A stretch of 32,582 nt of DNA. It comes from Opitutia bacterium. GTDB lineage: Bacteria > Verrucomicrobiota > Verrucomicrobiia > Opitutales > Seribacteraceae. Below the pieces are notes generated by a model. The model was not told the origin of the DNA and made no database searches. It saw only the letters and a list, made by a program, of their open reading frames with translations. Each line of letters starts with the position of its first letter. The stretch's first letter is position 1. The DNA lies in NCBI GenBank assembly GCA_018645475.1, contig JABGWU010000222.1, positions 1 through 32,582 of the forward strand. The letters are read 5' to 3'. Positions 10,039-31,701 of this stretch are shown piece after piece. The position numbers were made by a program, and so were the translations under genes.

Positions 10039-10054
10039 TGGAACTATTTTGATC

Positions 10055-11935
10055 ATGCCCATGTTTGCTGAAAACTTTGTTGAAGAAATCAAAGATCGGG
10101 TCGATCTATTTGATTTAATCAACCCCTATGTGCCCTTAAAAAAAAGTGGTTCTAAATGGGTTGGACTGAGTCCATTTAATCAAGAAAAGACACCTTCTTT
10201 TTATGTAGATTCTGCAAAAGGTTTTTTTCATTGCTTCAGTTCTGGTGAAAAAGGAGACGCCCTGTCTTTTGTTCAAAAAGTTGAGAACCTAACCTTTCCT
10301 GAAGCTATTGAATTTTTAGCGAATCGATTTGGCATTCAAATCAGATATGCAGAACTTGGAATTGGGAAACAACATACTTATCGAAAATCAATAAAATCCG
10401 AATTATATAACGCAAATGAAATGGCTATGGATTGGTTTGCTGAACAATTTAAACTGGATAACGAAGAGAGCAAAGTTGCCCAAAATTATTGGTTAACCGA
10501 AAGAAAATTTTCTCTCGAAGATGCCAATACATTTGGAATTGGATACGCACCAGTAAATCGATTTTCTCTAAGTAAATACCTCGAAAACAAAGGGGTTTCT
10601 GACACGGTTCTTGGCAAATCTGGTTTATTTAACGAAAAGAAACAATCCGGACAATTTGCATCACGATTTTGCGGAAGGTTAATGATTCCTATCCGAGAAA
10701 AAATTGGGAGAGTCTGTGGATTTACTGCAAGACAACTTTCAGTTACTCCAACTTGGGGAGACCGGAAATCTCCTAAATATGTCAATTCTCCCGAAACCCC
10801 AATTTTCTTAAAAGGTGACTTGCTATTTAACCTCCATTTAGCGAACAAAGAAATTAACGAAAATAAAGAATTTCTTCTTGTAGAGGGACAACTTGATGCG
10901 ATTCGCTGTTGGCTAGAAGGATTTAAAACAGTTATTGCCCCCCAAGGAACAGCCTTTAAAGAATCGCAGGCAATGTTGCTGAAGAAATCAAACCCAAAGG
11001 GTGTAGTCTGCCTTTTAGATGGAGACGCAGCTGGTCAGAAAGCAGCATTTAGCTATATTCCAACTTTTTTGAAAGCTGGGCTTGATGCTCGGTTTACGAC
11101 ATTACCGGAGGGAAAAGATCCGGATCAAATTCTGTTGGAACAAGGAGGCGACAGTCTGAAAAATATTATTGATAGAGGGGTTTCCTCCATCGAATTTGCT
11201 GTACGATATAAATTAAGAGGAAAACATAATCCTCAAGCCTCTGAGATTCAAGCAGTGAGCAGCTTGATCTTTTCCTCTATCTCTGAAGTTGACTCCTTAA
11301 TTATGAAGGATACTTACCTCAAAGAATTGAGTCGTCATTTGAAAGTTTCGTTTCAAACGATGAACGAAGAATTTAACAATTTTAACCGATCAAAAAAACC
11401 TAGGTACAAAGGGATTAACCATCAGTTGGAAGAAAATTCTTCAAAAAAACCTTCTCAGCGTTTGACAACTGCTGAAGATGATTTATTGTTCTGCCTTTTG
11501 CATGATAACAGAGTTGCAAGCCCGCTTGCCCAAATTTTCGATCCAACTTGGCTTAACCTCGATATACCAGCGGGGAGGATTTTGGCTAAAATCATGGCAG
11601 AAACAAAAGCAGACGGTCCAGTTGAGACTACCCGAATGGAACAATTCCTTGAAGATGATATGGAAAGAAATGCATATCAGCAGAACTTCTTTCAAGAAGT
11701 TTCTTCTTTTGACGAAAATTCTTTTCTCCAACATACAAACGAATGCCTCCTCGCCTTGTTTATTCGCTCCATCAAACAAAAAGAAAAAGAGATCTTGGAT
11801 AACCTCGATCAACCAAACGGAGCAGACGGTACAACAGAGTCGCTCAGAGAAAAGCTTCAACAAATTCGAAAACATCGTAAAAATCCACCTAAATTAATTT
11901 TATCCGACCAGCACACCCGTTACTCTCATGCCTAG
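10055..11935 (+). CDS. dnaG: DNA primase DnaG with degenerate zinc-binding domain
   Basis: This 626-residue protein should make RNA primers for DNA replication with the DnaB helicase. I chose ATG 10055; TTG 10049 and ATG 10061 are alternatives. The N-terminal CHC2 domain is recognisable ([20 protein letters not shown], later [12 protein letters not shown]). Against the canonical C-P-F-H and C-x-x-C pattern, the four zinc ligands are Ser39, Asn42, Cys60 and Ser63, so only one is kept. The catalytic core is intact: [36 protein letters not shown], the TOPRIM glutamate in [10 protein letters not shown] (about 270) and [14 protein letters not shown]. The C-terminal helicase-interaction region is divergent. 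Its last 8 bases overlap the start of rpoD, an arrangement like the classical dnaG-rpoD unit. Confidence 0.95.
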
Positions 11936-13847
11936 ACCTAAAAGTTCCACAACCACTAAAAAAACACCGGTGAAGAAAGCTTCTACCGCTAAAGCTAAAG
12001 CTAAGAAAGAACCAGCTTCAAAAACATCCAAAGCCAAAACTCCTACAAAGGTAGCAACTAAGACAAAAGCTGTTAGCAAAACCACTAAGACAACCAAGAC
12101 TTCATCGTCCAAAACCAAAGTTACCGCGAAGGAAATCGCCAAAAAAATCGATAAGAATATCGAACCCCATGCGTTAAATGATGAAGTTACTGAAAAAGTT
12201 AGAGAATTAATACATCTATCTAGGGAACAAGGCTATCTTACTTATAAAAACATTGATCAATCCTTACCTGAAATAGCCAACCAACCCGAGGAACTGCAAA
12301 ATGTTATTTCTATCTTTAACAATTTGGAGATTAAACTTCTCGACTCTAATGAAGTAGACAAATTTAAGAAGAAGAAAGAGGAAAGCGAAGAAGAGACTGC
12401 CCGATCGAACGTGAGCGATATGCTGGATGATCCTGTCCGGATGTATCTTAAACAAATGGGACAGGTTCCGCTTTTGTCCAGAGAAGAAGAAGTTGATATT
12501 TCTAAAAGAATTGAAACAGCCGAAAGCTCAGCACTCAAAATCATTTATTCTGTAAGTTTAACTGCTGATTTCCAATTGGATATTTGTAAAAGATTAATTG
12601 CTCGAGAAGAACGATTTGATCGCGTGGTTTTGGACAAAAAAATTGACAGTCGAGAGTCTTATTTTAAAAACCTTGCCAAACAAGTAATTGCATTGGAAGA
12701 CACGGTTCGAAAAATTAATAATGCATGGGTCAGTATCGAAAATGCAAATGACGAAACTCAAAAAAAGCGTTCCACTACTCGCTTTAAAAATTACGAATTA
12801 ACCCTAGCCCCTATCTTTAAAAAATGCTGCCTTAAGCTTAAGGTTTTTGAAGATTTCCTAAGCCAAATTAATCCTGAATTAAAAGCCATTTCGCGTAATT
12901 TACACAATGTAGAATTGGCTAAAAAAGACGCAGTTAAAGTCAAACGAAAAGGGGTTAAAATGGACCGGGTTAAAGAGGAATTGGAAAATGCCCGAACTCG
13001 TTTCAAAATGGAACCGGAGACATTGGCTCAGTTAATAAAGAATCTTCGGCTTAATATGCGCCAGGCCCATCGTGCAAAAACTGAAATGGTTGAAGCGAAC
13101 CTGCGTCTCGTCATTTCAATTGCAAAAAAATATACCAATCGTGGATTATCTTTCCTGGATCTTATACAAGAGGGAAATATGGGACTTATGAAAGCTGTTG
13201 AAAAATTTGAATATCGAAGAGGATACAAATTTTCCACTTATGCTACATGGTGGATTAGGCAAGCAATTACACGATCCATTGCAGATCAAGCTAGAACCAT
13301 AAGGATTCCAGTCCACATGATTGAAACCTTGAACAAGGTCATGCAGGTTCAAAAGCAACTAATTCAGGAATTAGGGCATGAACCAACTCCAGAAGAAGTG
13401 GCTATTGAAATGGGGTTACCCTTAGAAAAGGTACAGGGAATTATGAAAATGGCACAACAACCCATTTCCTTGCAAAGTCCTGTAGGAGATAGTGACGATA
13501 CCAATTTTGGCGATTTCATTGAAGATAAAGGAGCAGAAAATCCTTACGATATGACTGCATATTCCTTACTTCGTGAAAAAATCATTGATGTCCTTGACTC
13601 CCTTACAGAAAGGGAACGCAATGTATTATCTCTTAGATTTGGTCTTAAAGATGGTTACAGTAGAACTCTAGAAGAAGTGGGGCGTCAGTTTAAGGTCACC
13701 CGTGAACGAATTCGTCAAATCGAAGCAAAAGCTCTACGAAAAATGAGGCACCCAACTCGTATAAGACAACTTCACGGTTTCTTTGAGGCTGATCAAAGTT
13801 CCGTAAATAAACCCAAGCCTGAAGCTCTCAGGCAGCTTGGACTTTAG
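11928..13847 (+). CDS. rpoD: Primary sigma factor RpoD (sigma-70)
   Basis: This 639-residue protein directs RNA polymerase to housekeeping promoters. Residues 1 to about 75 form a low-complexity Lys/Thr/Ala/Ser-rich tail. A region 1.1-like helix set follows (about 85-145), then region 1.2 ([20 protein letters not shown]). A charged non-conserved spacer comes next. Region 2 starts near 388 ([40 protein letters not shown]), then region 3. Region 4 (about 555-620) contains [15 protein letters not shown] and [18 protein letters not shown]. All core elements are intact, so it should read standard -35/-10 promoters. The ATG lies inside the end of dnaG with an 8-base overlap and no Shine-Dalgarno, so translation is probably coupled. 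It is followed by a 76-base gap carrying the probable tatA promoter. Confidence 0.97.
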
Positions 13848-18451: not shown

Positions 18452-19515
18452 ATAACACGACTAACCATTCCTTATTTCTTTTAGGGAGTTCCCACCAAGT
18501 TGCCGACTTAGCTGCCCGCGAACGTATTAGCTTACCGGCAGACTCTATCGATGAATTCTATAATGGCTTAGGACAAATTGATGGCTTAGATGAATATCTT
18601 TTACTGAACACATGTAATCGAACGGAAATTTATGGAGCTTCTCGCGAAAAATTTTCAATAGATTCATTGCTTTCATACCTAAGTAAATTTCGTAAACTTG
18701 AACCTGAGTTCTTAAGTAAGCATTCATATCAAATAAATAATCATGAAGTCATAAATCATTTATTTAAGGTAACCTCTGGAATTGATTCTCAAATGATAGG
18801 AGAAACCGAAATTTTGGGACAAGTAAAGAAAGCATATGATGAAGCCTGTAAAAGAAATGCTTCAGGAAAAATGCTTAACCGGCTTTTTCAAAAAGGATTT
18901 CAAGCCGCGAAATGGGCACGAACAAATACCGGCATTTCAAAAGGACAGGTAAATTTGGGAAATGTGCTCTGTGATTTGGCACGAAGAATCTTTGGTAAAG
19001 TTTCCAATTGTAGATTACTTGTGGTTGGAGCCGGAGAGGTTGCTGAAAGTACCATAGAAGCTTTTAAATCGAGAGGATCGCAAGCTATAACTGTCACTGG
19101 GAGAACATTTGACTGGTGCCCTCTCAGTCGTCGAAAACCAGACGAGTTGGCAGAAAAATTTGGCGGATTTGCTCTATCTTTTAATCAGTTTAAAAGTTCC
19201 CTGCACCTCTTTGATGTTGTTCTCACATCTACTGCAAGTGGCCGATCAATGATTGACCTGACCGATGTAAAACATGCGATGAGTAAAAGACCGACTCAAC
19301 CTTTATTTCTGATTGATGCATCTGTTCCCAGAAATATTGAAGAGCAGGTCTCCCAAATAGATAATGTCTTCCTGTACAACATGGATGATGTTTCTGCCAT
19401 TGCGAATGAAAATTTAAAATCTCGAATCTCAGAAGTAGATCGATGCAGAGGAGCCCTCGCCCGAAGGGCCCGTAAATTATGGGAACAAATGATTCAGGCT
19501 AGAGAAGCAACTTGA
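18448..19515 (+). CDS. hemA: Glutamyl-tRNA reductase, short form
   Basis: This 355-residue protein reduces glutamyl-tRNA(Glu) to glutamate-1-semialdehyde with NADPH, the first committed step of C5 heme synthesis. The catalytic Cys56 lies in LLLNTCNRTEIYG. SGIDSQMIGETEILGQVKKA and KWARTNTGISKGQVNLG are further family blocks. The NADPH fold begins LLVVGAGEVAEST. The protein stops shortly after the long connecting helix (GALARRARKLWEQM), about 60-70 residues shorter than the usual 415-430, so the C-terminal dimerisation domain is largely absent. The stop lies 22 bases inside the convergent lpxB gene. The start overlaps the HemX-like gene by ATGA. A partial Shine-Dalgarno (GGAG) lies 12 bases upstream. 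Confidence 0.95.
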   Translation: MNNTTNHSLFLLGSSHQVADLAARERISLPADSIDEFYNGLGQIDGLDEYLLLNTCNRTEIYGASREKFSIDSLLSYLSKFRKLEPEFLSKHSYQINNHEVINHLFKVTSGIDSQMIGETEILGQVKKAYDEACKRNASGKMLNRLFQKGFQAAKWARTNTGISKGQVNLGNVLCDLARRIFGKVSNCRLLVVGAGEVAESTIEAFKSRGSQAITVTGRTFDWCPLSRRKPDELAEKFGGFALSFNQFKSSLHLFDVVLTSTASGRSMIDLTDVKHAMSKRPTQPLFLIDASVPRNIEEQVSQIDNVFLYNMDDVSAIANENLKSRISEVDRCRGALARRARKLWEQMIQAREAT

Positions 19516-20666
19516 ACCAACCAGTCCACAGCTGATTTTTGGTTCGATGAGGTCAGGCATGCAATTAGTTTTTTCGCATTCCCATCTGCTTTATTTCGTG
19601 CCTGGTCATCGCTTAAAATTTGACTCATAGAGTCACTCAATGATACTCCATTTGCATTATGTTGGAGGAATTCAGAGTATGGCGGATTATCTGGCAGTAA
19701 AATATTGGCCATTCCTAAATATGGAACTTTTACCAAAATTCGTCCAAGAAAATATGTGAGAGGGTGAACCCGGTAAGCAATTACACCAGGAATTCCAGCT
19801 AAAGCACAGGAAAGTGACATGGTTCCTGAACTCATAAGAGCTGCCCTAGCCCCCAAAATAGTTTCACCTTCAACCACTTGAATATTCTCTTTAATTTTAT
19901 GTCTTTTTGATAAAAGGGAAGATACTAATTTACGAATCCTTAAATCTGGAACAGGAATTTGAGCTTTCAAATCAGGATAAATTATTAATAATTGCTCATA
20001 AGCATCAAGTAGAACAGGCAAGATTCTTTCCACCGGTTGAGACCGACTGCCGGGCAAAAGAAGTAACGGTCCACTGGAATCATAATGAACCGGTGATATA
20101 AAATTACTCTTGGTAAAAGGATGCCCGACAAAAGAGACTGGTAATTTGGTATCGCTATAACAATCTACTTCAAATGGAAAGATAACTCCTAATCCATCTA
20201 AAACCTGTTCCATTATAAACCTTCGTTTTGGCTTCCATGCCCAAAGTTGTGGGCTAATATATTGAATAATTTTCACCTGTCCTCCACCCTTATCGGAAAT
20301 ACCAATTTTTTTAAGTTCTTTTGCTAGCCTTAGGTTAAAACCAGGATAATCAATCAAAAGAACACTCTTTGGTTTATGCTTTCTTATCCATTCAATCGTA
20401 TTTGAAAAAATTTGTTTAAAAGTTTGATAATTTTTTAAAACCTCAATGACACCAACAACCGCGTGCTCAACTAAAGGATAAACTAAAAAAGCACCTTTTT
20501 TCTCAAGACAGGGTCCACCAATGGCAGCACAATTTAAATGAGGGTATGACGAGATTAAATCCTCCATTAATAGAGATCCATGCTGATCTCCTGAAGCTTC
20601 CCCTGCAATGATCAAGAGATCAATTGACTGATCAGAAGGTGAATTAAATTGTAAATTTGCAATCAA
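19494..20666 (-). CDS. lpxB: Lipid-A-disaccharide synthase
   Basis: This 390-residue glycosyltransferase joins UDP-2,3-diacylglucosamine and lipid X to form the lipid A disaccharide at the inner membrane. Diagnostic blocks are LLIIAGEASGDQHGSLLMED, LLIDYPGFNLRLAKELKKIG, QYISPQLWAWKPKRRF, PVSFVGHPF and LLLPGSRSQPVERILPVL. The start is a TTG at 20666, one base after the TGA of the upstream oxidoreductase gene, since no ATG lies before the family's first strand. It is the last gene of a nine-gene minus-strand run and overlaps hemA tail to tail by 22 bases. Confidence 0.96.
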   Translation of the reverse strand: MIANLQFNSPSDQSIDLLIIAGEASGDQHGSLLMEDLISSYPHLNCAAIGGPCLEKKGAFLVYPLVEHAVVGVIEVLKNYQTFKQIFSNTIEWIRKHKPKSVLLIDYPGFNLRLAKELKKIGISDKGGGQVKIIQYISPQLWAWKPKRRFIMEQVLDGLGVIFPFEVDCYSDTKLPVSFVGHPFTKSNFISPVHYDSSGPLLLLPGSRSQPVERILPVLLDAYEQLLIIYPDLKAQIPVPDLRIRKLVSSLLSKRHKIKENIQVVEGETILGARAALMSSGTMSLSCALAGIPGVIAYRVHPLTYFLGRILVKVPYLGMANILLPDNPPYSEFLQHNANGVSLSDSMSQILSDDQARNKADGNAKKLIACLTSSNQKSAVDWLVQVASLA

Positions 20667-20667
20667 T

Positions 20668-21603
20668 TCACAGAGTTGCGTTGATTTGCTTCGTGATTAA
20701 CAAAGCAATTTCCAGAGCGGTTTTTCCGAATGCACCATCAGTCTTCGGAGTTAAAGCTCCGTTAACACACTGAATAAAAGATTCTAGCTCCAATGCCAGT
20801 GGTTCCCCCTTCTCAACAGGAACATCCTGTTTGTTCAAAGTAATTCCTTCTTTTTTAATAAGATGTCCTTTTTGGTTCATGAAATCTAGAGATAAATAAC
20901 CGCTGTCTTGAAAAACTCTAATTTCTCGGGCCTTTTTTTCACTTACTCGACTCGCACTTAAATTAGCAACGCAGCCATTTTCAAAACAAATCCTCGCATT
21001 TGCAATATCTTCTGTAGGGGAAAGAACTCGTACCCCAATTGCGTCGACCTTGGAAATGGAGGAGGAAACGAGTGCCATAGCTATACCAATATCATGAATC
21101 ATCAGATCAAGTACCACTCCTACTTCGGTTCCCCTGGGTTGAAAAGGAGCAAGTCTTTCGACCGTAAGGTATTTAGGCTGCTCAACGGCATCCTCAAGAA
21201 AAGTCATAACGGGATTATAATGCTCAATATGTCCAACCTGTACTATAGTTTTATTCTTTTGTGCCACATTTAGGATATCCTCGGCTTCGCTCAAAGAAAC
21301 GCACAATGGTTTCTCAATTAAAACATGACAGCCTAAATCCATAAGAGGAATAGCTACCTCTGCATGAAGGTCTGTGGGTGACACCACACTTACCACATCG
21401 CAACTTTCTCCCAATTCCTTCAAGCTACTAAATACAGTGCAATTTTGATCATTTGCCACGCTTTCGCATACATCCAAATGAGGATCAAAAACGCCAACAA
21501 GTTCGCAGGAATTCAATGAATTGTAAATTCTTGCATGATGTTGTCCAAGATATCCCACTCCGGCTACTCCACATTTGATTTTTTTCTGTGATAATTCAGC
21601 CAT
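20668..21603 (-). CDS. Gfo/Idh/MocA-family oxidoreductase next to lpxB
   Basis: This 311-residue NAD(P)-dependent oxidoreductase has a Rossmann motif GVAGVGYLGQHHARIY at the N-terminus, the VVSVVSPTDLHAEVAIPLMD block, the EKP substrate-site motif in VLIEKPLCV, and VGHIEHYNPV. Its position one base upstream of lpxB suggests a role with UDP-sugar or lipid A precursors. Such a gene is, to my knowledge, a recurrent lpxB neighbour in several phyla. A GnnA-like UDP-GlcNAc 3-dehydrogenase is one possibility, but the aminotransferase partner GnnB is not in the window. The enzyme family is secure; the substrate is inference. Confidence 0.88.
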   Translation of the reverse strand: MAELSQKKIKCGVAGVGYLGQHHARIYNSLNSCELVGVFDPHLDVCESVANDQNCTVFSSLKELGESCDVVSVVSPTDLHAEVAIPLMDLGCHVLIEKPLCVSLSEAEDILNVAQKNKTIVQVGHIEHYNPVMTFLEDAVEQPKYLTVERLAPFQPRGTEVGVVLDLMIHDIGIAMALVSSSISKVDAIGVRVLSPTEDIANARICFENGCVANLSASRVSEKKAREIRVFQDSGYLSLDFMNQKGHLIKKEGITLNKQDVPVEKGEPLALELESFIQCVNGALTPKTDGAFGKTALEIALLITKQINATL

Positions 21604-21608
21604 AATAA

Positions 21609-22304
21609 TTATTGGTTTTGCAATGTACCCTTTTTTAAAAAGAGTGAACGGTTTGTTGCTTGAGCGAAAATTGGATTATGGGTCACTAAAATGAGGGCGG
21701 CATTTTCCTCGTCACAACTTTTCAGTAGTAAATCCATCACTTCTGCCCCAGTCCTCTCATCTAAATTCCCCGTAGGTTCATCAGCAAGTATCAATTTTGG
21801 ATTATTAATTAACGCTCTGGCTATGGCCACCCTTTGCCTTTCCCCGCCAGATAATTTTGAAGGCACCTGCCTTTCTTTTTGCCCAACTCCCATTCTGTTA
21901 AGTAATTCACGAGCTCGTGTCGTAGATTCTTTTCCAAAGGAACCAGACAATCTTGCTCCAATGAGTACATTTTCTAAAACATTCAACTCCGGAATTAAAT
22001 AATAAGCTTGGTAAACAACACCGAGAAAACTTGCTCTTATTAAAGCCTCAGCGGAAGCACATTTCGAAGATGCACTCATTTTATGATTTCCCCATCTTAT
22101 CTCACCGCGATCTCCTGTCTCCAAACGAGCCAATAAATTCAATAAAGTTGTCTTGCCACAACCAGAATCCCCACGAATGCTCATAGATTGACCAGCAGAA
22201 ATACTCAGATCGATATCTTCCAAAACCTGAAAGCTACGGCCCTCAAAAAGAAAGCTTTTTGCCAAGCCCTTTGCTTCCAGTACAATATCGACCGAACTAC
22301 TCAC
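21609..22304 (-). CDS. lolD: Lipoprotein-releasing ABC transporter ATPase LolD
   Basis: This is a 231-residue ABC ATPase. The Walker A motif is GDSGCGKTT, the signature is LSGGERQRVAIARAL, and Walker B is LILADEPTGNLDE. The sequence belongs to the LolD/MacB-type group and powers extraction of lipoproteins from the inner membrane. The start is a GTG at 22304 inside the end of the permease gene (8-base overlap), so the two are translationally coupled. The next gene begins 5 bases after its stop. A MacB-type or FtsE-type role is possible from the ATPase alone, but the LolC/E-type permease supports LolD. Confidence 0.92.
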   Translation of the reverse strand: MSSSVDIVLEAKGLAKSFLFEGRSFQVLEDIDLSISAGQSMSIRGDSGCGKTTLLNLLARLETGDRGEIRWGNHKMSASSKCASAEALIRASFLGVVYQAYYLIPELNVLENVLIGARLSGSFGKESTTRARELLNRMGVGQKERQVPSKLSGGERQRVAIARALINNPKLILADEPTGNLDERTGAEVMDLLLKSCDEENAALILVTHNPIFAQATNRSLFLKKGTLQNQ

Positions 22305-23904
22305 CTCTTAAAGCATCAGCAGGTTTTAAACGAGTTGCACGCCAAGCCGGCAGTAATCCGGCTAAAGTTGAAACAAGGACGGCAAAAAAAGCAAAAGATA
22401 AAAATGTATGAAAACTTCCAACAGATTCCCATGGATAATATATTTCCAAACTATAAAAATCATAAAATTGAGATACCCCAGCCTGTCCATCCTCTCCTGC
22501 AATATTCTTCACTATAAATGACATTAACTCATCTCTGTAATACATAAATATCAACGCAAATCCACACCCTAAAACAGCTCCCATTATCCCAATAATAAAC
22601 CCCTGCAAACAAAACACCGCACCCACAGAAAACCTGCCCCCCCCCATCGCAATCAATAACCCAATCTCACGAATCTTTCTTAAAACTGAGGTCATCAATG
22701 CAATGGCAATGGCAAAAGCTGCAACTAATCCGATCGGAACCATAATTAATATCATAAGATACTCCTCAAATTTTAATAAATCAAAAAACCATGCATTTTC
22801 AACAAACCAAGGTACCACGCCCCATCCATCACCAAGAAATTCTTCCAATGCTTGGCAGGATTTTGCTAATTCCCGCTCGTTGCTTGCAACTGATTTAATC
22901 GCTCTTAAGTAAAACCCGTCAATGCGACCTTCATCTCCACGCATATCTTGCATAAACCGGATTGTACTGAATAATGCTTCGGTATGAAAACCTTGCCAAG
23001 GAACTTCAAAAATTCCTCCGACTCGAACTTCTCTTGGCGGAATCATCTCATCTGCCTTAATCTTTTCAATCATGGAAGGAGAAAAAGCTTCGACTGTTGA
23101 ACCTTTAAAAACATGAAATTTAAACAGATCTCCTTTTCTAAATATTTCATTTCCAATTACCGGTTTAAAAATAGGGAATCCGATTCCTCTATCGATTGGA
23201 CCATCGCTTAATAAACATTCAATCTCATCACCTGTGCTGATATCTCGAACACGGTATTTCTGTTCACTTTTGAACTCAACTTCCCACTCGCCCGATTCAA
23301 CAAAAGGATCCAACCTTGAAACCGAAATCGTCGAAGATACAGAGCTCCTGCTATTATTTACATCATAAAATCGGATTACCGATGGTGGTCTAACACCCAA
23401 TCGCTTCGCCACTTGAGAACTTACAAAAATAACATCATCCTCGAGAGTATCAATTGTGGGAACTGGGGTTATATCTTCGGCGTCATGAGCATCCATCTTC
23501 ATTGCCCCACCTGTTAAAAATGAATCAATATCAAGAACCAAGCTTTCTCGATCAGGCTTAATTCCCATTGAAAATGGGATGGAGTGATAATCTCCCTTTT
23601 GTAAAAGAAGTTGTCCCTGTAAATAAGGCATTACTGAATCGATAGAAGAATATTCTTCTATTTTCTTTTGTTGTTTTTGCCAATTACTCGAAGGTTTCCA
23701 TTGAATCACTCGTCCATGTCCCTGTGCGTCAATGATGTCATTTCGAAATTTATTTTGAAAACCTTGCATAAAAATAATGACCACAATCATTACATTTACA
23801 CCAAGAGCGACACCTACAATGGCCAAAAGTGAGAAAAAAGATACTTTCTTTTGACTTGGGAAAAGTTGCTTCCAAGCCAAATATAAAGGCCAAGGTAATT
23901 TCAT
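22297..23904 (-). CDS. lolC: LolC/E-type ABC permease with enlarged periplasmic domain
   Basis: This 535-residue permease has four transmembrane helices in the LolC/E layout: one near residues 22-48 (SLLAIVGVALGVNVMIVVII), then three at about 385-412, 428-458 and 500-522. Family blocks include the N-terminal LAWKQLFPSQKKVSFFSL and the C-terminal LAGLLPAWRATRLKPADALR. The periplasmic domain between helices 1 and 2 is about 330 residues, and the protein is over 100 residues longer than typical LolC or LolE (about 400-415). Only one permease gene accompanies lolD, so it may work as a homodimer. It overlaps lolD by 8 bases. Confidence 0.88.
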   Translation of the reverse strand: MKLPWPLYLAWKQLFPSQKKVSFFSLLAIVGVALGVNVMIVVIIFMQGFQNKFRNDIIDAQGHGRVIQWKPSSNWQKQQKKIEEYSSIDSVMPYLQGQLLLQKGDYHSIPFSMGIKPDRESLVLDIDSFLTGGAMKMDAHDAEDITPVPTIDTLEDDVIFVSSQVAKRLGVRPPSVIRFYDVNNSRSSVSSTISVSRLDPFVESGEWEVEFKSEQKYRVRDISTGDEIECLLSDGPIDRGIGFPIFKPVIGNEIFRKGDLFKFHVFKGSTVEAFSPSMIEKIKADEMIPPREVRVGGIFEVPWQGFHTEALFSTIRFMQDMRGDEGRIDGFYLRAIKSVASNERELAKSCQALEEFLGDGWGVVPWFVENAWFFDLLKFEEYLMILIMVPIGLVAAFAIAIALMTSVLRKIREIGLLIAMGGGRFSVGAVFCLQGFIIGIMGAVLGCGFALIFMYYRDELMSFIVKNIAGEDGQAGVSQFYDFYSLEIYYPWESVGSFHTFLSFAFFAVLVSTLAGLLPAWRATRLKPADALRGE

Positions 23905-23920
23905 GAGAAATTCAAATTAA

Positions 23921-24235
23921 TCACTCCCTCGGAGTATCAGTCATGTTTAGTTCCGGCACTTGATCATCTTCGAAAAGAGTAACATTCAAATCAATGGAAC
24001 GGTAAGGTTCAATCCATTCATTCCATTGATCTACTAAGTCATCATCAATTTTGGGCAATGGATAATCATCCTGAAGAAAAGAAACATAGCCAAAATAAAG
24101 GACAACTAAAATCAATGCAGTCATAACCAGCTTTATTAAACCTTTTAAAATGGCGAATAAGAGGAGAACGCACAACAACGCTAATGTAAAACTGAGTAAA
24201 GGGTGACTTAAAATTTGCTCTAGTATTTCTTCCAT
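23921..24235 (-). CDS. Small membrane protein of unknown function
   Basis: This is a 104-residue protein with a long hydrophobic stretch (about residues 14-52, LSFTLALLCVLLLFAILKGL then VMTALILVVLYFGYVSFL). The stretch is probably two closely spaced helices, followed by an acidic soluble tail (DDLVDQWNEWIEPYRSIDLN). No family is recognised. It lies 16 bases before the lolC start and 45 bases after the lipoprotein gene, in the middle of the envelope gene run. An accessory role at the inner membrane is plausible but unproven. Confidence 0.72.
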   Translation of the reverse strand: MEEILEQILSHPLLSFTLALLCVLLLFAILKGLIKLVMTALILVVLYFGYVSFLQDDYPLPKIDDDLVDQWNEWIEPYRSIDLNVTLFEDDQVPELNMTDTPRE

Positions 24236-24280: not shown

Positions 24281-24808
24281 TCACTTGGGATGACTATTTG
24301 CAGATAAATCGACACGGGGATTAGGTAATTGATAATGAAACCCCTTTCGAAACAGTTTAGCCTCCAATTCCTTCATATCTCTACTTAATAAACGAACAGC
24401 TGCTCTTTGTCTCTTTGTCTCTGCATTTTTTACCTTTAACCTTGCTAACCATTCAATCCTCTTACCTTCGGTTATAAAACCTTTATCGGATGGAAAACGA
24501 TCTTCAATCGCTTGAAATTTCAAAAATTCTGACTCAAGAATTATTTCACTTCGACGTGCCTCATCAGAGCGAATCTGAGCCTCCACAATCAATTTTCTAA
24601 TTTCCAACCATTCTAGTTCAAGATTTGATGCTTGTAGTTTTTTTTGAATTTGAACTTTTTCTGCACCAAGACCAAGAACCGTATTACCCGAAAAACTGCT
24701 TGGATTCTCTGAAGACGATTTGTTCGGTTTACTTGATTGGCAAGAACACAGGAGTAAGAAAAACCCACTCCACGCACAAATAGAAAGGTTTTTTACTTGG
24801 AAACCCAA
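24281..24808 (-). CDS. Lipoprotein with charged coiled-coil body
   Basis: This 175-residue predicted lipoprotein has hydrophobic residues 11-21 and a clear lipobox LLLCSC ending at Cys22, followed by a Ser/Lys/Asn-rich linker. The body (about residues 50-160) is strongly helical and charged (LELEWLEIRKLIVEAQIRSD), probably a coiled coil. The start is a TTG at 24808 inside the end of ydbL (16-base overlap); no ATG precedes the lipobox in frame. I recognise no family. The overlap ties it to the YdbH/YnbE/YdbL unit, and a structural or regulatory role there is inference. Confidence 0.75.
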   Translation of the reverse strand: MGFQVKNLSICAWSGFFLLLCSCQSSKPNKSSSENPSSFSGNTVLGLGAEKVQIQKKLQASNLELEWLEIRKLIVEAQIRSDEARRSEIILESEFLKFQAIEDRFPSDKGFITEGKRIEWLARLKVKNAETKRQRAAVRLLSRDMKELEAKLFRKGFHYQLPNPRVDLSANSHPK

Positions 24809-25158
24809 TTTCCCGAAGAATTCTTAAACCAATGACCTTTCTTGGCTTTACTTGCGATCGCTTTGGCAAACTTCTTGGCTACATCTTTAGTCTCACCTCC
24901 AGTTTTCTCAGCCAAAATTTTAAATAGTGTAACACGGTCCTTGTTTTCTGCTTTGACCAAATTTGCAAGCTCAGTGGATGCCTCATTTCGGACTAGAAGC
25001 ATTCCATTTAATCCCTCGCCAATAGAACCTGCATCTTTGGCAGCAAGAACACTTGGCAAACGAGCTTTCATCCGACTTGTAAGGTTTGAATCAGCAAATA
25101 CCGAAGAAAAAGCAATTAATGATATGAAAAGAAGGTAAATAAAATGTTTAAAATTCAT
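24793..25158 (-). CDS. ydbL: YdbL-family periplasmic protein (DUF1318)
   Basis: This 121-residue exported protein starts at ATG 25158 (MNFKHFIYLLFISLIAFSSV), with signal cleavage after VFA. A longer frame reaching 25218 has an implausible leader and overlaps the ynbE gene. The mature part matches DUF1318/YdbL: SIGEGLNGML, NLVKAENKDRVTLFKILAEK, AKAIASKAKKGHWFKNSSGN and a terminal WVSK, parallel to the E. coli YdbL ending. YdbL acts with the YdbH-YnbE bridge, probably by keeping YnbE from improper assembly. It follows ynbE by 25 bases and overlaps the next lipoprotein gene. Confidence 0.88.
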   Translation of the reverse strand: MNFKHFIYLLFISLIAFSSVFADSNLTSRMKARLPSVLAAKDAGSIGEGLNGMLLVRNEASTELANLVKAENKDRVTLFKILAEKTGGETKDVAKKFAKAIASKAKKGHWFKNSSGNWVSK

Positions 25159-25183
25159 AATGAGTATAATTTCAGTTGCTTGA

Positions 25184-25357
25184 TTATTCGGACTCTTTTT
25201 CGTCGCCATACAAATCATCCAAAAAATCGTTCACTTCTTTTTCAATTTTAATAGAAATATTATGATCAAGTGTAATGTGATGTTCTGTTTTCATAACTGT
25301 ACAACCAAAATTGCCGAAGAAAATGAAAATGGGTAATATACGAAAATAAGAGGACAT
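25184..25357 (-). CDS. ynbE: YnbE-like small lipoprotein
   Basis: This 57-residue gene is easily missed because of its size. It begins MSSYFRILPIFIFFGNFGC, a short signal with Cys19 as the probable lipidated residue. The mature part, TVMKTEHHITLDHNISIKIE followed by KEVNDFLDDLYGDEKESE, resembles E. coli YnbE: a short lipoprotein with an alternating beta-strand segment of the form PITINMNVKIEHE. It sits exactly between ydbH (68 bases upstream) and ydbL (25 bases downstream), the order found in E. coli. YnbE is an outer-membrane lipoprotein that associates with the YdbH C-terminus to complete a bridge across the periplasm. The call rests on motif, length, lipobox and position together. Confidence 0.85.
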   Translation of the reverse strand: MSSYFRILPIFIFFGNFGCTVMKTEHHITLDHNISIKIEKEVNDFLDDLYGDEKESE

Positions 25358-25425
25358 TTATCGAAAATAAGTTTATCTTTGTTTTCCTGCAACCGATAAG
25401 TTTTCTACAATTAAAAAAACATGAA

Positions 25426-27684
25426 TCACAAACCTAGCTTATTCAAGTTTAGTTTATGCATAATTTCCGATAAACCTGCAATAATTTTGGGACGATAATC
25501 TAATGAGACCTCGGTATTTTTCTTAATTGTGGATTTCCCCCGTATGCTCCCTAGTATTTGTCTTTGCTCTCCATCGACCTCAAAGGAAAGTCTAAGTGAA
25601 TCAAGTTCAAGATTTTTCAATGCCATCTCTGTCATTTGCATACGCTTAAACTCTTCTGTCCCCTCTTGAATTCCATTTGTCAAAAAACCATTAGATTTGT
25701 AACTAAGTTTTGCATTGGCATTTGGATCCAACTGTAAAAAACCACCTTGAAAGTCCCAATTCCCTCCTTGATTTGAAAAGGGAACACGACCAGAAAAACT
25801 TCCATTAATATCCAAATCAATCCCCTCAACGAGATTAGCAATTTCCTGACCGTTCATTTTATTAATAACAGTATTTATAAGCATATCATCGGCGTATAAA
25901 TTAAATCTACTCTCTGAGAATCCAATCTCTCCATCATAAAGTTTTGCAATGCCGTGATTGATGAGAAAACTTCCATCTTGTAAAATTTGGAAACTGAAAT
26001 TTCCATCTACGATTTCAATGTCACCAAGTTGACAACTTTCAAATATTAATGTTTGGCTTCCATTTGTTTCCAATGGGTCGAGCGAATTAAAACGAATTTC
26101 ACCGTCTAAACCAAAAATTGAAATCTCTTCATTTGGTAAAACAAGAGAGCTTTTATCGAATTGAAAACAGATTTTCCCAAAATCATTTTCTGGGATTTCA
26201 ACAATCATATTTGCTGGTCGCATTTCAAGAATAGTATTACCCAAAGTTAAAGTAAGCATATCAATCAGGACATGATTTAAATCCTGGGTCCGAAAGATTA
26301 AGGCCAAGTCCTCCAATAACACTTCATCTCCCGAAATAACCCGCCGACCGGAAATAGTTTGAGGCATCTTAATTTGCGGAAATTGATCAATATCTACTAT
26401 GCCAAAATAAGAGAATTGAACAAAAGAAATGCCCAATTCCAGAAGGGCGGCATCTATTGGAAACATTCTCAAATTTACATTTCGATCCTGTGTAAATAGA
26501 AATGAAATATTTCCATTATACAGCCTAAAGAAATTGTCATCGTAGGAAAATTCCTGAAAAGAAAACTTTTTTTCTTCTCCATATGGAATTTTGGACGGAT
26601 TGCTCATATCAAAATTGATTGTGGGAAATCGTAAACCATGGAGTTCTAATGGAGGAAATTTATTATTCGTCTTCAAATAACTAATCCCTCCATTTAAATC
26701 CATGTTCGTTCCATTCTTTGTGACCTTAAGATGAATTTCTTCAGCATCCAGATTGTCTTCGTTGCTAAGATTCAAGTAAGAATTAACAATCCAATTATTT
26801 ATACTTTCAGGCGTGATAAAAAAAATCGATTTTGGAATTGAGAAATTATGATCACCCCAACCTATTGAAAAATCAGTCCCATTTAATTCTAGAAAAGTAT
26901 CTATTAATCCATCGGGAACAATTCGCGTTAGTCCATCCAAAAATATATTACCGGTGGAAAGTTTAAACTCTTGGGGTATCATCTTCCTTAACCTTGGATC
27001 TGAAAAGACCTCATCAATAAGTCCTGCGGTATTGTTAATTTGAATTTGAGTGGATGCAAATGTAGAATTTTCTTCCCTACTTAAGTTAAATTCTCCGATA
27101 ATAGAAGTGCCATTATAATCTGCTTCCCACAAAAGGTGAGTCAGGTTCTCCAAAAAATCTATCTTCGCCAAGAAATCTATATTTCTGGATTTATTATTAT
27201 CAAGTAGAGTAACGCTTGAATCTCTTATTCTTAAATAGGACAAAGGAGGAGGGCTTAAAAGATCTTGAATCATATTAAAGGTTTCAGAAAAAGAACTCTC
27301 ATTAGAGCTTTCCTTCGAATTCAAAATATGTTCACCAATATCAACTTTAGCTGAAATACCACTCATCGAAATTGCATTAATTTCTCCTAATGCAACGCTT
27401 GCAGGGTCGTAAAGGATGTCAACTTGACTGATTTCCAATAAATTCTGATCCGTTCCTGTCGATAAATTCAAAATTTTAGTTTTCCAGGGATCCAATTGAG
27501 CAACTTTCATTTGAAAGTCGGGAAAACCGTTATCTTTTGCCGCTCCCTTTATGCCCCATTCTAGAAAAAAGGGCAGACTGTTCCAAATTCCAATTAATAA
27601 AATCAGGAAAAATAAAACTACCAAAAGAATAAACCTTGGAATGGAGAACCATTTGTTGAGTATCTGTTGTATTTTCTGAAACAC
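25426..27684 (-). CDS. ydbH: YdbH-family (AsmA-like) intermembrane lipid transport protein
   Basis: This 752-residue protein is anchored by one N-terminal transmembrane helix (about residues 18-38, FILLVVLFFLILLIGIWNSL) and has a long beta-rich periplasmic body. In E. coli, YdbH (about 880 residues) is one of the AsmA-like proteins thought to carry phospholipids to the outer membrane. The C-terminal region fits the YdbH pattern: DLDINGSFSGRVPFSNQGGN, then GGFLQLDPNANAKLSY, MALKNLELDSLRLSFEVDGE and KNTEVSLDYRPKI. Gene order ydbH-ynbE-ydbL supports the call. The start is a GTG at 27684. It heads the minus-strand envelope run and is divergent from a Gfo/Idh gene across a 101-base gap that must hold both promoters. 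Confidence 0.88.
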   Translation of the reverse strand: MFQKIQQILNKWFSIPRFILLVVLFFLILLIGIWNSLPFFLEWGIKGAAKDNGFPDFQMKVAQLDPWKTKILNLSTGTDQNLLEISQVDILYDPASVALGEINAISMSGISAKVDIGEHILNSKESSNESSFSETFNMIQDLLSPPPLSYLRIRDSSVTLLDNNKSRNIDFLAKIDFLENLTHLLWEADYNGTSIIGEFNLSREENSTFASTQIQINNTAGLIDEVFSDPRLRKMIPQEFKLSTGNIFLDGLTRIVPDGLIDTFLELNGTDFSIGWGDHNFSIPKSIFFITPESINNWIVNSYLNLSNEDNLDAEEIHLKVTKNGTNMDLNGGISYLKTNNKFPPLELHGLRFPTINFDMSNPSKIPYGEEKKFSFQEFSYDDNFFRLYNGNISFLFTQDRNVNLRMFPIDAALLELGISFVQFSYFGIVDIDQFPQIKMPQTISGRRVISGDEVLLEDLALIFRTQDLNHVLIDMLTLTLGNTILEMRPANMIVEIPENDFGKICFQFDKSSLVLPNEEISIFGLDGEIRFNSLDPLETNGSQTLIFESCQLGDIEIVDGNFSFQILQDGSFLINHGIAKLYDGEIGFSESRFNLYADDMLINTVINKMNGQEIANLVEGIDLDINGSFSGRVPFSNQGGNWDFQGGFLQLDPNANAKLSYKSNGFLTNGIQEGTEEFKRMQMTEMALKNLELDSLRLSFEVDGEQRQILGSIRGKSTIKKNTEVSLDYRPKIIAGLSEIMHKLNLNKLGL

Positions 27685-29461: not shown

Positions 29462-30340
29462 ATGAAAAGAAGAGAATTTATAATAAACTCGGGTGGGTTA
29501 TTTTTAGCTCTACCCTCTTTCGCAAGCTCTTCCAAGCTTCCTTACATGGATCAGATTGGAATTCAATTGTACACTCTAAGAAAAGAAATCAATAAAGATT
29601 TAAAAGGAACCATTCAAGCAGTGGCCAAGGCAGGCTATAAACAAGTTGAACCCTATGGCTTCCCCTCCCCTCAATCAATTCAGATGATCAAAGAAGCCCG
29701 CAAATGTGGAATGAAGGTAAACTCGTCACATTTTGACTGGAATTCTGTATTACATCCCGAATACAAAGGAGTACTTCCTTTTAAAGAAATTCTATCTCTT
29801 GCTGGAAAGCATAAATTATCCCACCTCGTGATTCCCTATCTAGCAGAGGGCGACAGGAGAAATTTAGATGCATATAAGAAAGTGAGCGAGTCTCTTAACC
29901 AAGCTGCTGAACTTTCTTCATCGGCCAATATTCAACTCGCTTATCATAATCATGCATTCGAATTCAAACCCATGGAGAAGGGGAAAACGGGATACGATAT
30001 TTTCGTTGAAAATTTTTCTTCCAAAATGGCATTTGAGATGGATGTATTTTGGGTCAAGCTCGGTGGAGTGAATCCCATATCCATGATTAAAAGTTTAAAA
30101 GGACGAATTTCACAACTTCATCTTAAAGACTTAAAGAAGGAGTCCATTATTCCAAATTTTGGTAAAGTAAAACCCGATGCATTTGATGAGATTGGAGATG
30201 GAATGATTAATATGGAACCCATTATGAAAATTGCTAAAAAAACCGGGATTAAGCATTGCCATGTCGAACAGGACCAATCCTCCAATCCCATGGCTAGCAT
30301 CAAGAAAAGCATTGAATTTCTAAAATCCAAATCATCATGA
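29462..30340 (+). CDS. Tat-exported sugar phosphate isomerase/epimerase-like TIM barrel
   Basis: This 292-residue protein begins MKRREFIINSGGLFLALPSF, a twin-arginine signal (RR-x-F-I, hydrophobic stretch, cleavage near SFAS). The mature domain resembles xylose-isomerase-like TIM barrels: QIGIQLYTLRKEINKDLKGT at strand 1, LAYHNHAFEF, FEMDVFWVKLGGVNP, ISQLHLKDLK and KHCHVEQD. The Glu, Asp and His residues in these blocks are the usual divalent metal ligands. It probably isomerises or epimerises a free sugar in the periplasm. Its TGA overlaps the ATG of the following sulfatase gene (ATGA), so the two are coupled. The Tat route fits export of a folded metalloprotein. Confidence 0.87.
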   Translation: MKRREFIINSGGLFLALPSFASSSKLPYMDQIGIQLYTLRKEINKDLKGTIQAVAKAGYKQVEPYGFPSPQSIQMIKEARKCGMKVNSSHFDWNSVLHPEYKGVLPFKEILSLAGKHKLSHLVIPYLAEGDRRNLDAYKKVSESLNQAAELSSSANIQLAYHNHAFEFKPMEKGKTGYDIFVENFSSKMAFEMDVFWVKLGGVNPISMIKSLKGRISQLHLKDLKKESIIPNFGKVKPDAFDEIGDGMINMEPIMKIAKKTGIKHCHVEQDQSSNPMASIKKSIEFLKSKSS

Positions 30341-31701
30341 ACAGACTAATTGGGTTTCTTTTTTTTTCCGTTCTTTTTGTAGATGCGAAAGTTGACAATA
30401 TTCTCCTCATTGTCTCGGATGATTTAAAAGCAGATGCCTTGGGGTGCTATGGCAACCCGATCGCTAAGACCCCAAATATAGATCAATTGGCAAAACAAGG
30501 CACTCTCTTCAGGAATGCATATTGCCAAGGGACTGTATGTCGTCCATCCCGGGCCAGTTTCATGCGCGGGCGTTACATCGGAAAAGAAGAAATTACATGG
30601 GGTGAACATTTTCAAATAAATGGCTTTTCAAGCACACGGGTAGGTAAAATTTTCCACATGCGTGTGCCCGGGGATATCATCGCTGGCACAGACGGACAGG
30701 ATGTCCCCGCTTGTTGGTCAGCCAAATTTAACATGCCCGGGAAAGAAGCCCATACACCCGGAAACTATGCCTGCCTTAACCTGAACAAATTTACCACTAA
30801 ACTGGAAGGTCGTCAATCCACCCAAATGCCCTACAGGATGTTTGTCACAGTTGATTATGAAGGCGATGGGAGTGATCAACCGGATTGGAAAGCGGCAAGC
30901 AAATCCATCGAATTGCTAAAAAAGTTCAAGAAAGATAAGCAGCCCTTTTTTCTGGCCACAGGTTTGGTTCGTCCTCATTACCCCAATGTCGCACCGAGTC
31001 AGTATTTCTCAGCATATCCCTTTAAACAAATGAACTTACCCTTCGTGCCTGCAGGAGACTGGGAAGACATGCCAAAAGCGGCCATTTCGGGTTCAAATTC
31101 AAAACGCTTTGGGATAGATAAGTTTCAAGATAACCAGAAACGCATGTGGGCAGGCTATCTTGCCACAGTTACCTTTATGGACGAACAAGTGGGTAGAATT
31201 CTCCGGACCCTAAAAGAACTTGGTCTGGATCAAAGTACAGCAGTTATGTTCACTAGCGACCATGGTTACCTCCTCGGCGAACATTACTTTTGGCAAAAGG
31301 GAAACCTTCGGGAAGAAGTAACTCGGGTACCGCTGATCATAAAGTCACCGATTGATAAACCGGGCATCAGCACTTCTCTGGTCGAACTGGTTGATCTTTT
31401 TCCAACCGCATGCGAAATGGTTGGTTTACAATCTCCACCATCCGTACAAGGCTCCAGTCTTCTTCCCATTCTCAAAAACCCGAAAAAAGAAGTTAAGAAG
31501 TCGGCACTGTCCTTTATCCCCAAAGGAACTTCTATGAGAACTAAAAAATGGGCATACATGAAATATAAAGATGGGACAGAAGAACTTTACGATATGAAAA
31601 ACGATCCCAAACAATTTAAAAATCTCGTTTCAAACGATAGTTATTCTGAAGTTTTAAATAAACTAAGAACTCAATTCAAAACCAGAAATAAATCCAATTA
31701 G
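30337..31701 (+). CDS. Secreted type I sulfatase, iduronate-2-sulfatase-like (CxPSR)
   Basis: This 454-residue formylglycine sulfatase has a signal peptide covering residues 1-17 (ending VDA). The metal pair is D28-D29 in LLIVSDDLKADALGCYG. The modification site is Cys68 in GTVCRPSRASF. LATGLVRPHYPNVAP and TSDHGYLLGEHYFWQKGNLR follow, then VTRVPLIIKSP. The RPH and LGEH-x-x-W blocks resemble the iduronate-2-sulfatase-like subgroup common in marine Planctomycetes and Verrucomicrobia; this subgroup assignment is from memory. It is coupled by ATGA to the isomerase gene, suggesting desulfation and sugar conversion in one pathway. The stop shares TTAG with the stop of the convergent deacetylase gene. 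Confidence 0.94.
   Translation: MNRLIGFLFFSVLFVDAKVDNILLIVSDDLKADALGCYGNPIAKTPNIDQLAKQGTLFRNAYCQGTVCRPSRASFMRGRYIGKEEITWGEHFQINGFSSTRVGKIFHMRVPGDIIAGTDGQDVPACWSAKFNMPGKEAHTPGNYACLNLNKFTTKLEGRQSTQMPYRMFVTVDYEGDGSDQPDWKAASKSIELLKKFKKDKQPFFLATGLVRPHYPNVAPSQYFSAYPFKQMNLPFVPAGDWEDMPKAAISGSNSKRFGIDKFQDNQKRMWAGYLATVTFMDEQVGRILRTLKELGLDQSTAVMFTSDHGYLLGEHYFWQKGNLREEVTRVPLIIKSPIDKPGISTSLVELVDLFPTACEMVGLQSPPSVQGSSLLPILKNPKKEVKKSALSFIPKGTSMRTKKWAYMKYKDGTEELYDMKNDPKQFKNLVSNDSYSEVLNKLRTQFKTRNKSN

Follow-up and report, generated by a model that had tools for sequence, protein, structure and literature searches.

A probable YdbH-YnbE-YdbL intermembrane bridge in Verrucomicrobiota, encoded inside an outer-membrane-assembly gene run

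How phospholipids travel to the outer membrane has long been an open question, and most work on it concerns Proteobacteria. For E. coli, Kumar et al. (PNAS, 2024) are said to have proposed a model of YnbE stacking in which YdbL acts as a chaperone. In the present work, we examine a contig of 32,582 nucleotides from an Opitutia bacterium (Seribacteraceae, Verrucomicrobiota; GCA_018645475.1, JABGWU010000222.1), called the window throughout, in which an initial annotation had recognized the genes ydbH, ynbE and ydbL. We will argue that these genes probably encode an intermembrane bridge of the E. coli YdbH-YnbE-YdbL type, and that they lie inside a run of genes for outer-membrane assembly.

According to excerpts of two reports (PMC8593681, PMC8912898), YdbH, YhdP and TamB are jointly essential in E. 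coli and maintain the lipid balance of the outer membrane, and plasmid-borne ydbH-ynbE-ydbL suppresses a tamB yhdP double mutant. Excerpts of two others (PMC12977461, PMC11784454) state that the E. coli YdbH interacts or works with YnbE. AsmA-like proteins are stated for all outer-membrane phyla except two (excerpt of PMC8912898). The TamAB/TamL systems resemble the window locus in that an AsmA-like protein of the inner membrane has its own dedicated partner in the outer membrane (excerpts of PMC8912898 and PMC12045153), but the partner in the window is a small lipoprotein and not a barrel. YhdP is likewise a large AsmA-like protein and one of the three redundant E. coli proteins just named, but it belongs to another family and is encoded elsewhere.

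Both relatives were searched for in the 42 genomes of the window's GTDB family. TamB (PF04357) exceeds the cut-off in none of them, with one sub-threshold match, while 6 of 14 control genomes are positive. A sub-threshold YhdP-like C-terminus is present in 20 of the 42, mostly in frames of about 870-916 residues (e.g. G305 C53, G319 C3). The window's own genome gave no YhdP-like match; this assembly is 82.6% complete, which makes the absence of a gene there weak evidence.

The ydbH-ynbE-ydbL set of the window

The closest described system is that of E. coli itself (b1381-b1383; PF11739, PF13617, PF07027). The window holds the same three genes in the same order on one strand, with the N-terminal anchor and the lipobox in place, and its YdbH and YdbL fall in the same Pfam families. 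The open reading frames lie on the minus strand where the initial annotation had put them (Table 1), with gaps of 68 nt between ydbH and ynbE and 25 nt between ynbE and ydbL; its guess that the source is a member of Verrucomicrobiota also holds. Of the three Pfam assignments it had put up for checking, those of YdbH and YdbL, either of which would have refuted the reading by its absence, exceed the curated cut-offs. That of YnbE, unlike in E. coli, does not, and the 57-residue protein is YnbE-like but not a member of PF13617. Further differences are the length of YdbH (752 residues vs 879 in E. coli) and the downstream genes, which in the window are an extra lipoprotein gene and lol/lpxB genes and in E. 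coli feaR, on the other strand.

YdbH matches PF11739 with 43 bits (cut-off 26.3) over residues 520-718, covering only model positions 658-852 of 893. Its hydropathy peaks at 2.9 at residue 15, as is expected for an N-terminal membrane anchor. A cleaned profile of YdbH C-termini (64 rows, built without the window, E. coli, L273, L285, L251 and L279) retrieves the E. coli YdbH at E 3e-6 and the window YdbH at E 2e-28 among 34,393 open reading frames. PF11739 alone undercounts: the genome of Cerasicoccus maritimus has no match to it, yet our profile detects a ydbH before ynbE there.

The AlphaFold2 model of the window YdbH was built from an alignment of 57 rows, the window and 56 others from Verrucomicrobiota and Desulfobacterota, to which it is 11-20% identical. 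Two of the rows proved not to be YdbH and were rejected as such, L273 being by eye an esterase-like frame and L285 an off-frame open reading frame. The model shows a helix at residues 2-51 followed by strands, the last at residues 738-746, with a mean predicted local distance difference test score (pLDDT) of 72 and a predicted template modelling (TM) score of 0.48. Residues 340-501, a stretch relevant to a continuous lipid groove, are mostly below a pLDDT of 50. In the PDB, the lipid-bridge LPD-3 complex matches it best (E 5e-5, TM score only 0.18), followed by ApoB100 and LptD, all with low TM scores; such matches would point to the fold class of long beta-sheets and no further.

YdbL matches PF07027 (DUF1318) with 74 bits (cut-off 27), over residues 30-120 of the 120 scanned and model positions 2-92 of 92. 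A Verrucomicrobiota DUF1318 profile that contains no E. coli row retrieves the E. coli YdbL at 71 bits. An in-frame ATG upstream offers an alternative start, which gives a protein of 141 residues.

For YnbE, a profile was made from 64 small lipoproteins encoded at the equivalent position in other phylum families, with the window's family left out. The window protein scores 22.4 bits on it, and the best of 2000 shuffles 13.5 (E 0.008). The E. coli YnbE scores 13.4 bits on a 97-row profile without E. coli, where the best of 2000 shuffles reaches 10.0. The pattern C-x(2,4)-K[TV][EQ]HHI[TI]LDH[NT]I[TS][IL] is found in 32 of 33 family sequences, the exception (G327) deviating at one position. A small lipoprotein with the strand-like YnbE motif is encoded between ydbH and ydbL in the window, as it is at all 32 other family loci. 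The window lipobox (GNFGC) is non-canonical at position -3, and lipidation is a prediction.

By analogy with E. coli, we infer from these features how the bridge may be assembled. The N-terminal helix would hold YdbH in the inner membrane, with the beta-groove of the protein extending across the periplasm. YnbE would be lipidated and reach the outer membrane through the Lol pathway, and its copies would stack strand-to-strand on the C-terminus of YdbH, closing the gap, so that the groove could serve phospholipids as a path to the outer membrane. YdbL would hold YnbE and control how it stacks; elsewhere in the phylum, several lineages have the two as one polypeptide.

Spread of the set and fusion of YnbE to YdbL

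The survey across Verrucomicrobiota covered 288 genomes with 110 DUF1318 loci. DUF1318 is present in 102 of the genomes and YdbH in 88; the two coincide in 73 (Fisher p 2e-29, without correction for kinship). By the Pfam model, ydbH lies on the same strand at most 3 kb upstream of 56 of the 110 loci; by the cleaned profile, it lies within 1.5 kb upstream of 73. The full adjacent set occurs at 72 of the 110, with YnbE separate at 56 and fused at 16. As the YnbE profile was trained on separate proteins, its result at separate loci (68/68) is partly by construction. Within the window's family, DUF1318 is present in 32 of 42 genomes, and a profile without any family row finds ydbH directly upstream at all 33 loci, the window included.

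Outside the phylum, DUF1318 occurs in 37 of 148 genomes of Desulfobacterota, the phylum of Desulfosarcina widdelii, and PF13617 exceeds its cut-off in 3 of the 148. A scan of named genomes, of which the best 80 of 440 confirmed stretches were kept (the named loci), returned Lentisphaeria, Kiritimatiellae, Opitutia and many Desulfobacterota ('Deltaproteobacteria'). In GTDB, Oligosphaera ethanolica belongs to Verrucomicrobiota. By the cleaned profile, for which about 60 of the 80 loci supplied the training rows, ydbH precedes 71 of the 80. The initial annotation took the bridge to be either old or widely exchanged; the spread is wide yet patchy. A tree of 70 YdbH C-termini groups the window with E. 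coli, a grouping that may be false because each of the two sits on a long branch. The set is real outside Proteobacteria, as had been claimed, but it is no isolated case: it is common in a phylum distant from E. coli, and DUF1318 is also found in Desulfobacterota.

In 29 of the 80 named loci, one frame bears both the YnbE motif and DUF1318 (e.g. L246, L224, L227, L269), and in the other 51 the two are separate. Twenty of the 29 carry the labels Lentisphaerae, Victivallales, Kiritimatiellae or Verrucomicrobia and nine carry no taxon, so that none is labelled Desulfobacterota; 25 stand behind ydbH. Among the 110 phylum loci, a rule-based count gave 31 fused, 69 separate and 10 with neither form. 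G283, separate by the rule, was reassigned by eye to none, and G076, G120 and G209 each hold a proper small lipoprotein, i.e. the separate form. Twelve of the 31 (families f9, f12, f13, f14 and f19) were dropped, the YnbE profile matching none of them and ydbH lying upstream of one. A YnbE profile built from unfused proteins alone recognizes all 19 secure fusions, 16 of which have ydbH upstream.

Four families (f17, f22, f33, f34) contain both fused and separate forms. With labels taken from gene structure and not from the tree, the fusion state requires three changes, gains or losses, on a tree of 64 YdbH C-termini from which six of the 70 rows had been removed beforehand (L285, L273, L251, L279, E. 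coli and the window). A single fusion clade is rejected there by the approximately unbiased (AU) test (p-AU 0.0037, the bootstrap being not fully settled). A 66-row tree also needs three changes (p-AU 0.0013) and the 70-row tree four. At least three gains or losses of the fusion are thus needed. In a fused Kiritimatiellae-type clade of 16 rows (L269 4676-6001, L283, L245 and others), YdbH has only 434-497 residues, each with its N-terminal hydrophobic stretch, and other named loci reach 974. Given these differences in length, the YnbE stack may need to span a variable gap.

The fusions bear directly on the role of YdbL. In the E. coli view it is a chaperone that leaves YnbE, and the alternative that YdbL is a soluble assembly factor that must depart, and no lasting part of the bridge, is in our judgement a serious contender, though not the reading we lean to. 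The title of the E. coli YdbL crystal structure in the PDB (28oj), 'probable chaperone-like protein YdbL', agrees with it, as does the unfused window protein, which by eye has a signal peptide and no lipobox. The DUF1318 part of the fused L246 model (mean pLDDT 84) superimposes on 28oj with a TM score of 0.90 over 88 columns and a root-mean-square deviation of 1.2. In several lineages, however, YdbL is covalently joined to YnbE and would stay with it unless cut off. A YdbL that forms one chain with the lipoprotein cannot simply depart from it, and the fusions are in this sense a natural test of its role.

Other DUF1318 proteins were also encountered. Lipoproteins with a divergent strand-like motif ahead of DUF1318, and with no ydbH detected upstream, occur at L133, L142, L143, L079 and L135 (f9), L160, L165 and L167 (f12), L166 (f14), L081 (f13) and L155 (f19), and five of six f9 genomes carry two DUF1318 copies. 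At L065, L151 (G131) and L158 (G210), extra DUF1318 copies stand behind another small lipoprotein without the YnbE motif.

The downstream gene run

The set is followed by six further genes (Table 1). All nine, from 27684 to 19494, are on the minus strand and either overlap or lie 1-68 nt apart, a spacing and orientation that suggest a single operon; promoter and terminator scans of the run gave no signal above shuffle level.

Table 1. Genes of the ydbH-ynbE-ydbL run in the window, in order of transcription
Feature	Coordinates	Strand	Description
ydbH	25426..27684	-	AsmA-like protein, 752 residues, GTG start, N-terminal membrane anchor, beta-rich body
ynbE-like	25184..25357	-	Predicted lipoprotein, 57 residues, motif KTEHHITLDHNISIKIEKEVNDFLDDLY, between ydbH and ydbL
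ydbL	24793..25158	-	DUF1318 protein, 121 residues, signal peptide (by eye)
Extra lipoprotein	24281..24808	-	175 residues, TTG start, overlaps ydbL by 16 nt; charged, probably helical (by eye)
104-residue protein	23921..24235	-	No family match over cut-off; N-terminal half hydrophobic (by eye)
lolC/lolE-like permease	22297..23904	-	535 residues; TIGR02212 160 bits (below the cut-off of 362); FtsX and MacB_PCD over Pfam cut-offs
lolD-like ATP-binding cassette (ABC) ATPase	21609..22304	-	Best NCBIfam match TIGR02211 LolD, 210 bits (below the cut-off of 308)
Gfo/Idh/MocA oxidoreductase	20668..21603	-	UDP-N-acetylglucosamine (UDP-GlcNAc) 3-dehydrogenase-like; PF01408 over cut-off; NF040723 219 bits (below the cut-off of 450)
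lpxB	19494..20666	-	Lipid-A-disaccharide synthase; PF02684 255 bits; TIGR00215 196 bits (cut-off 190)

The run is conserved throughout the family. At its 33 loci, the extra lipoprotein gene is found at 25, the 104-residue protein at 31, the lolC/E-like gene at 30, and the lolD-like and oxidoreductase genes at 29 each; except for those of the lipoprotein, all misses fall at truncated loci (both loci without the 104-residue protein have <600 bases downstream). At all 28 family loci with more than 4.6 kb available downstream, lpxB is in the same place. Relatives of lolC/E or lpxB (E <1e-20) were found at none of the 108 other phylum loci and none of the 80 named loci, with about 6 kb or less downstream covered. 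Among the loci compared, a run with the private lipoprotein and with lolC/E-like, lolD-like and lpxB genes is thus seen only in the window's family. A wider link to lolD, suggested by ABC ATPases near ydbL at six phylum and six named loci, was rejected after inspection of eight of them: by eye, six resemble sugar or nucleoside importers and one a peptide importer, and that of L269 is LolD/MacB-like and on the opposite strand.

The suggestion that the fourth, overlapping lipoprotein is lineage-specific is supported, the protein being found in 25 of the 42 family genomes. A 103-genome sample of the order gave nine matches, eight from family genomes and one from elsewhere in the order that is weak (E 5e-4) and interrupted by a stop. 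At the 25 loci its gene directly follows ydbL. Seven of the eight loci without a detected copy belong to the window's genus and have the 104-residue gene directly after ydbL; the eighth (G327) has another lipoprotein-like open reading frame in its place. The lipobox cysteine is present in 23 of 23 aligned rows, which is partly by construction as rows were selected by a lipobox rule. The window protein has no Pfam match and no PDB match at E 0.01; one of the 23 members matches DUF3810 at E 0.0057.

LolCDE is the described system nearest to the permease and ATPase genes, and lipoproteins of the YnbE type are the expected LolCDE cargo. The window proteins, however, miss the NCBIfam equivalog cut-offs, and among the loci compared only those of this family link such genes to ydbH. 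These neighbours raise the alternative that YdbH and YdbL are true homologues whose main cargo is not phospholipid but, for instance, lipid A precursors or lipoproteins. Such a cargo would explain the lpxB and lol neighbours, and it draws on the family-wide linkage to the lolC/E-like, lolD-like, UDP-GlcNAc dehydrogenase-like and lpxB genes. We consider it unlikely, as that linkage is confined to one family, whereas ydbH-ynbE-ydbL is far wider, and operon partners need not have a common substrate.

If the cargo is phospholipid, as we favour, the lolC/E-like, lolD-like and 104-residue proteins could conceivably serve YdbH by extracting phospholipid from the inner membrane, with the extra lipoprotein as a second docking part at the outer membrane. 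We think this quite unlikely; if true, it would provide a candidate for what powers or loads AsmA-like bridges. LolCDE and LptBFG have been raised as possible loaders of such bridges, and both doubted, in an excerpt of PMC10900882.

Two other arrangements in the window lie outside the run. A sulfatase gene with an SGSH-type C-terminus (30337-31701) stands beside a gene for a xylose-isomerase-like TIM-barrel protein (29462-30340), and dnaG, for primase, adjoins the gene of a full-length sigma-70 factor of the housekeeping type (10049-13847).

Weight of the evidence and biological meaning

It should be pointed out that several observations weigh against the bridge reading. The YdbH model is of modest confidence, with a weak C-terminus (pLDDT 42-60 in the last 30 residues), and its TM score is low against every solved structure. 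At 37 of the 110 phylum loci no upstream ydbH was detected, some of these loci being at contig ends, and DUF1318 may also occur without ydbH. In the L246 model, the YnbE motif (residues 35-54) is a helix and not a strand, with a pLDDT of 54 at residues 31-40 and 87-89 at 41-60. The strand stacking proposed for the E. coli YnbE is not seen here; the underlying alignment mixed fused and DUF1318-only rows, and the model contains no partner. The window YnbE reaches only 14.2 bits against PF13617, below the cut-off of 25.8. Finally, no functional data for the phylum were found in the one open-access literature library consulted.

The PF13617 score could also mean that the 57-residue protein is an unrelated small lipoprotein in the same place, for which one can add that none of nine YnbE-bearing proteins from other loci passes PF13617 (two give a sub-threshold row and seven none) and that one of the 2000 shuffles of the window protein also gave E 0.008, but this is very improbable, since position, lipobox and motif are alike across the phylum, no shuffle equals the scores of the window protein or the E. 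coli YnbE, and all 19 secure fusions bear the same motif ahead of DUF1318. We therefore retain the YdbH-YnbE-YdbL bridge as the probable identity of the system.

In the same library, none of the matches listed mentions a Verrucomicrobiota YdbH set, a fusion of YnbE with YdbL or a link to lol and lpxB genes; the fused YnbE-YdbL and the family run with lol-like and lpxB genes are thus two variants for which no mention was found there.

The bridge set known from E. coli is thus often present in a phylum far removed from it. In the window's family, YdbH may be less redundant than it is in E. coli, because TamB was not detected over the cut-off; a YhdP-like protein does remain in those 20 of the 42 genomes. 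With lower redundancy, the phenotype of a ydbH deletion could be read more directly. The family-wide run, in turn, suggests that these bacteria express the bridge jointly with lipoprotein export and lipid A synthesis.

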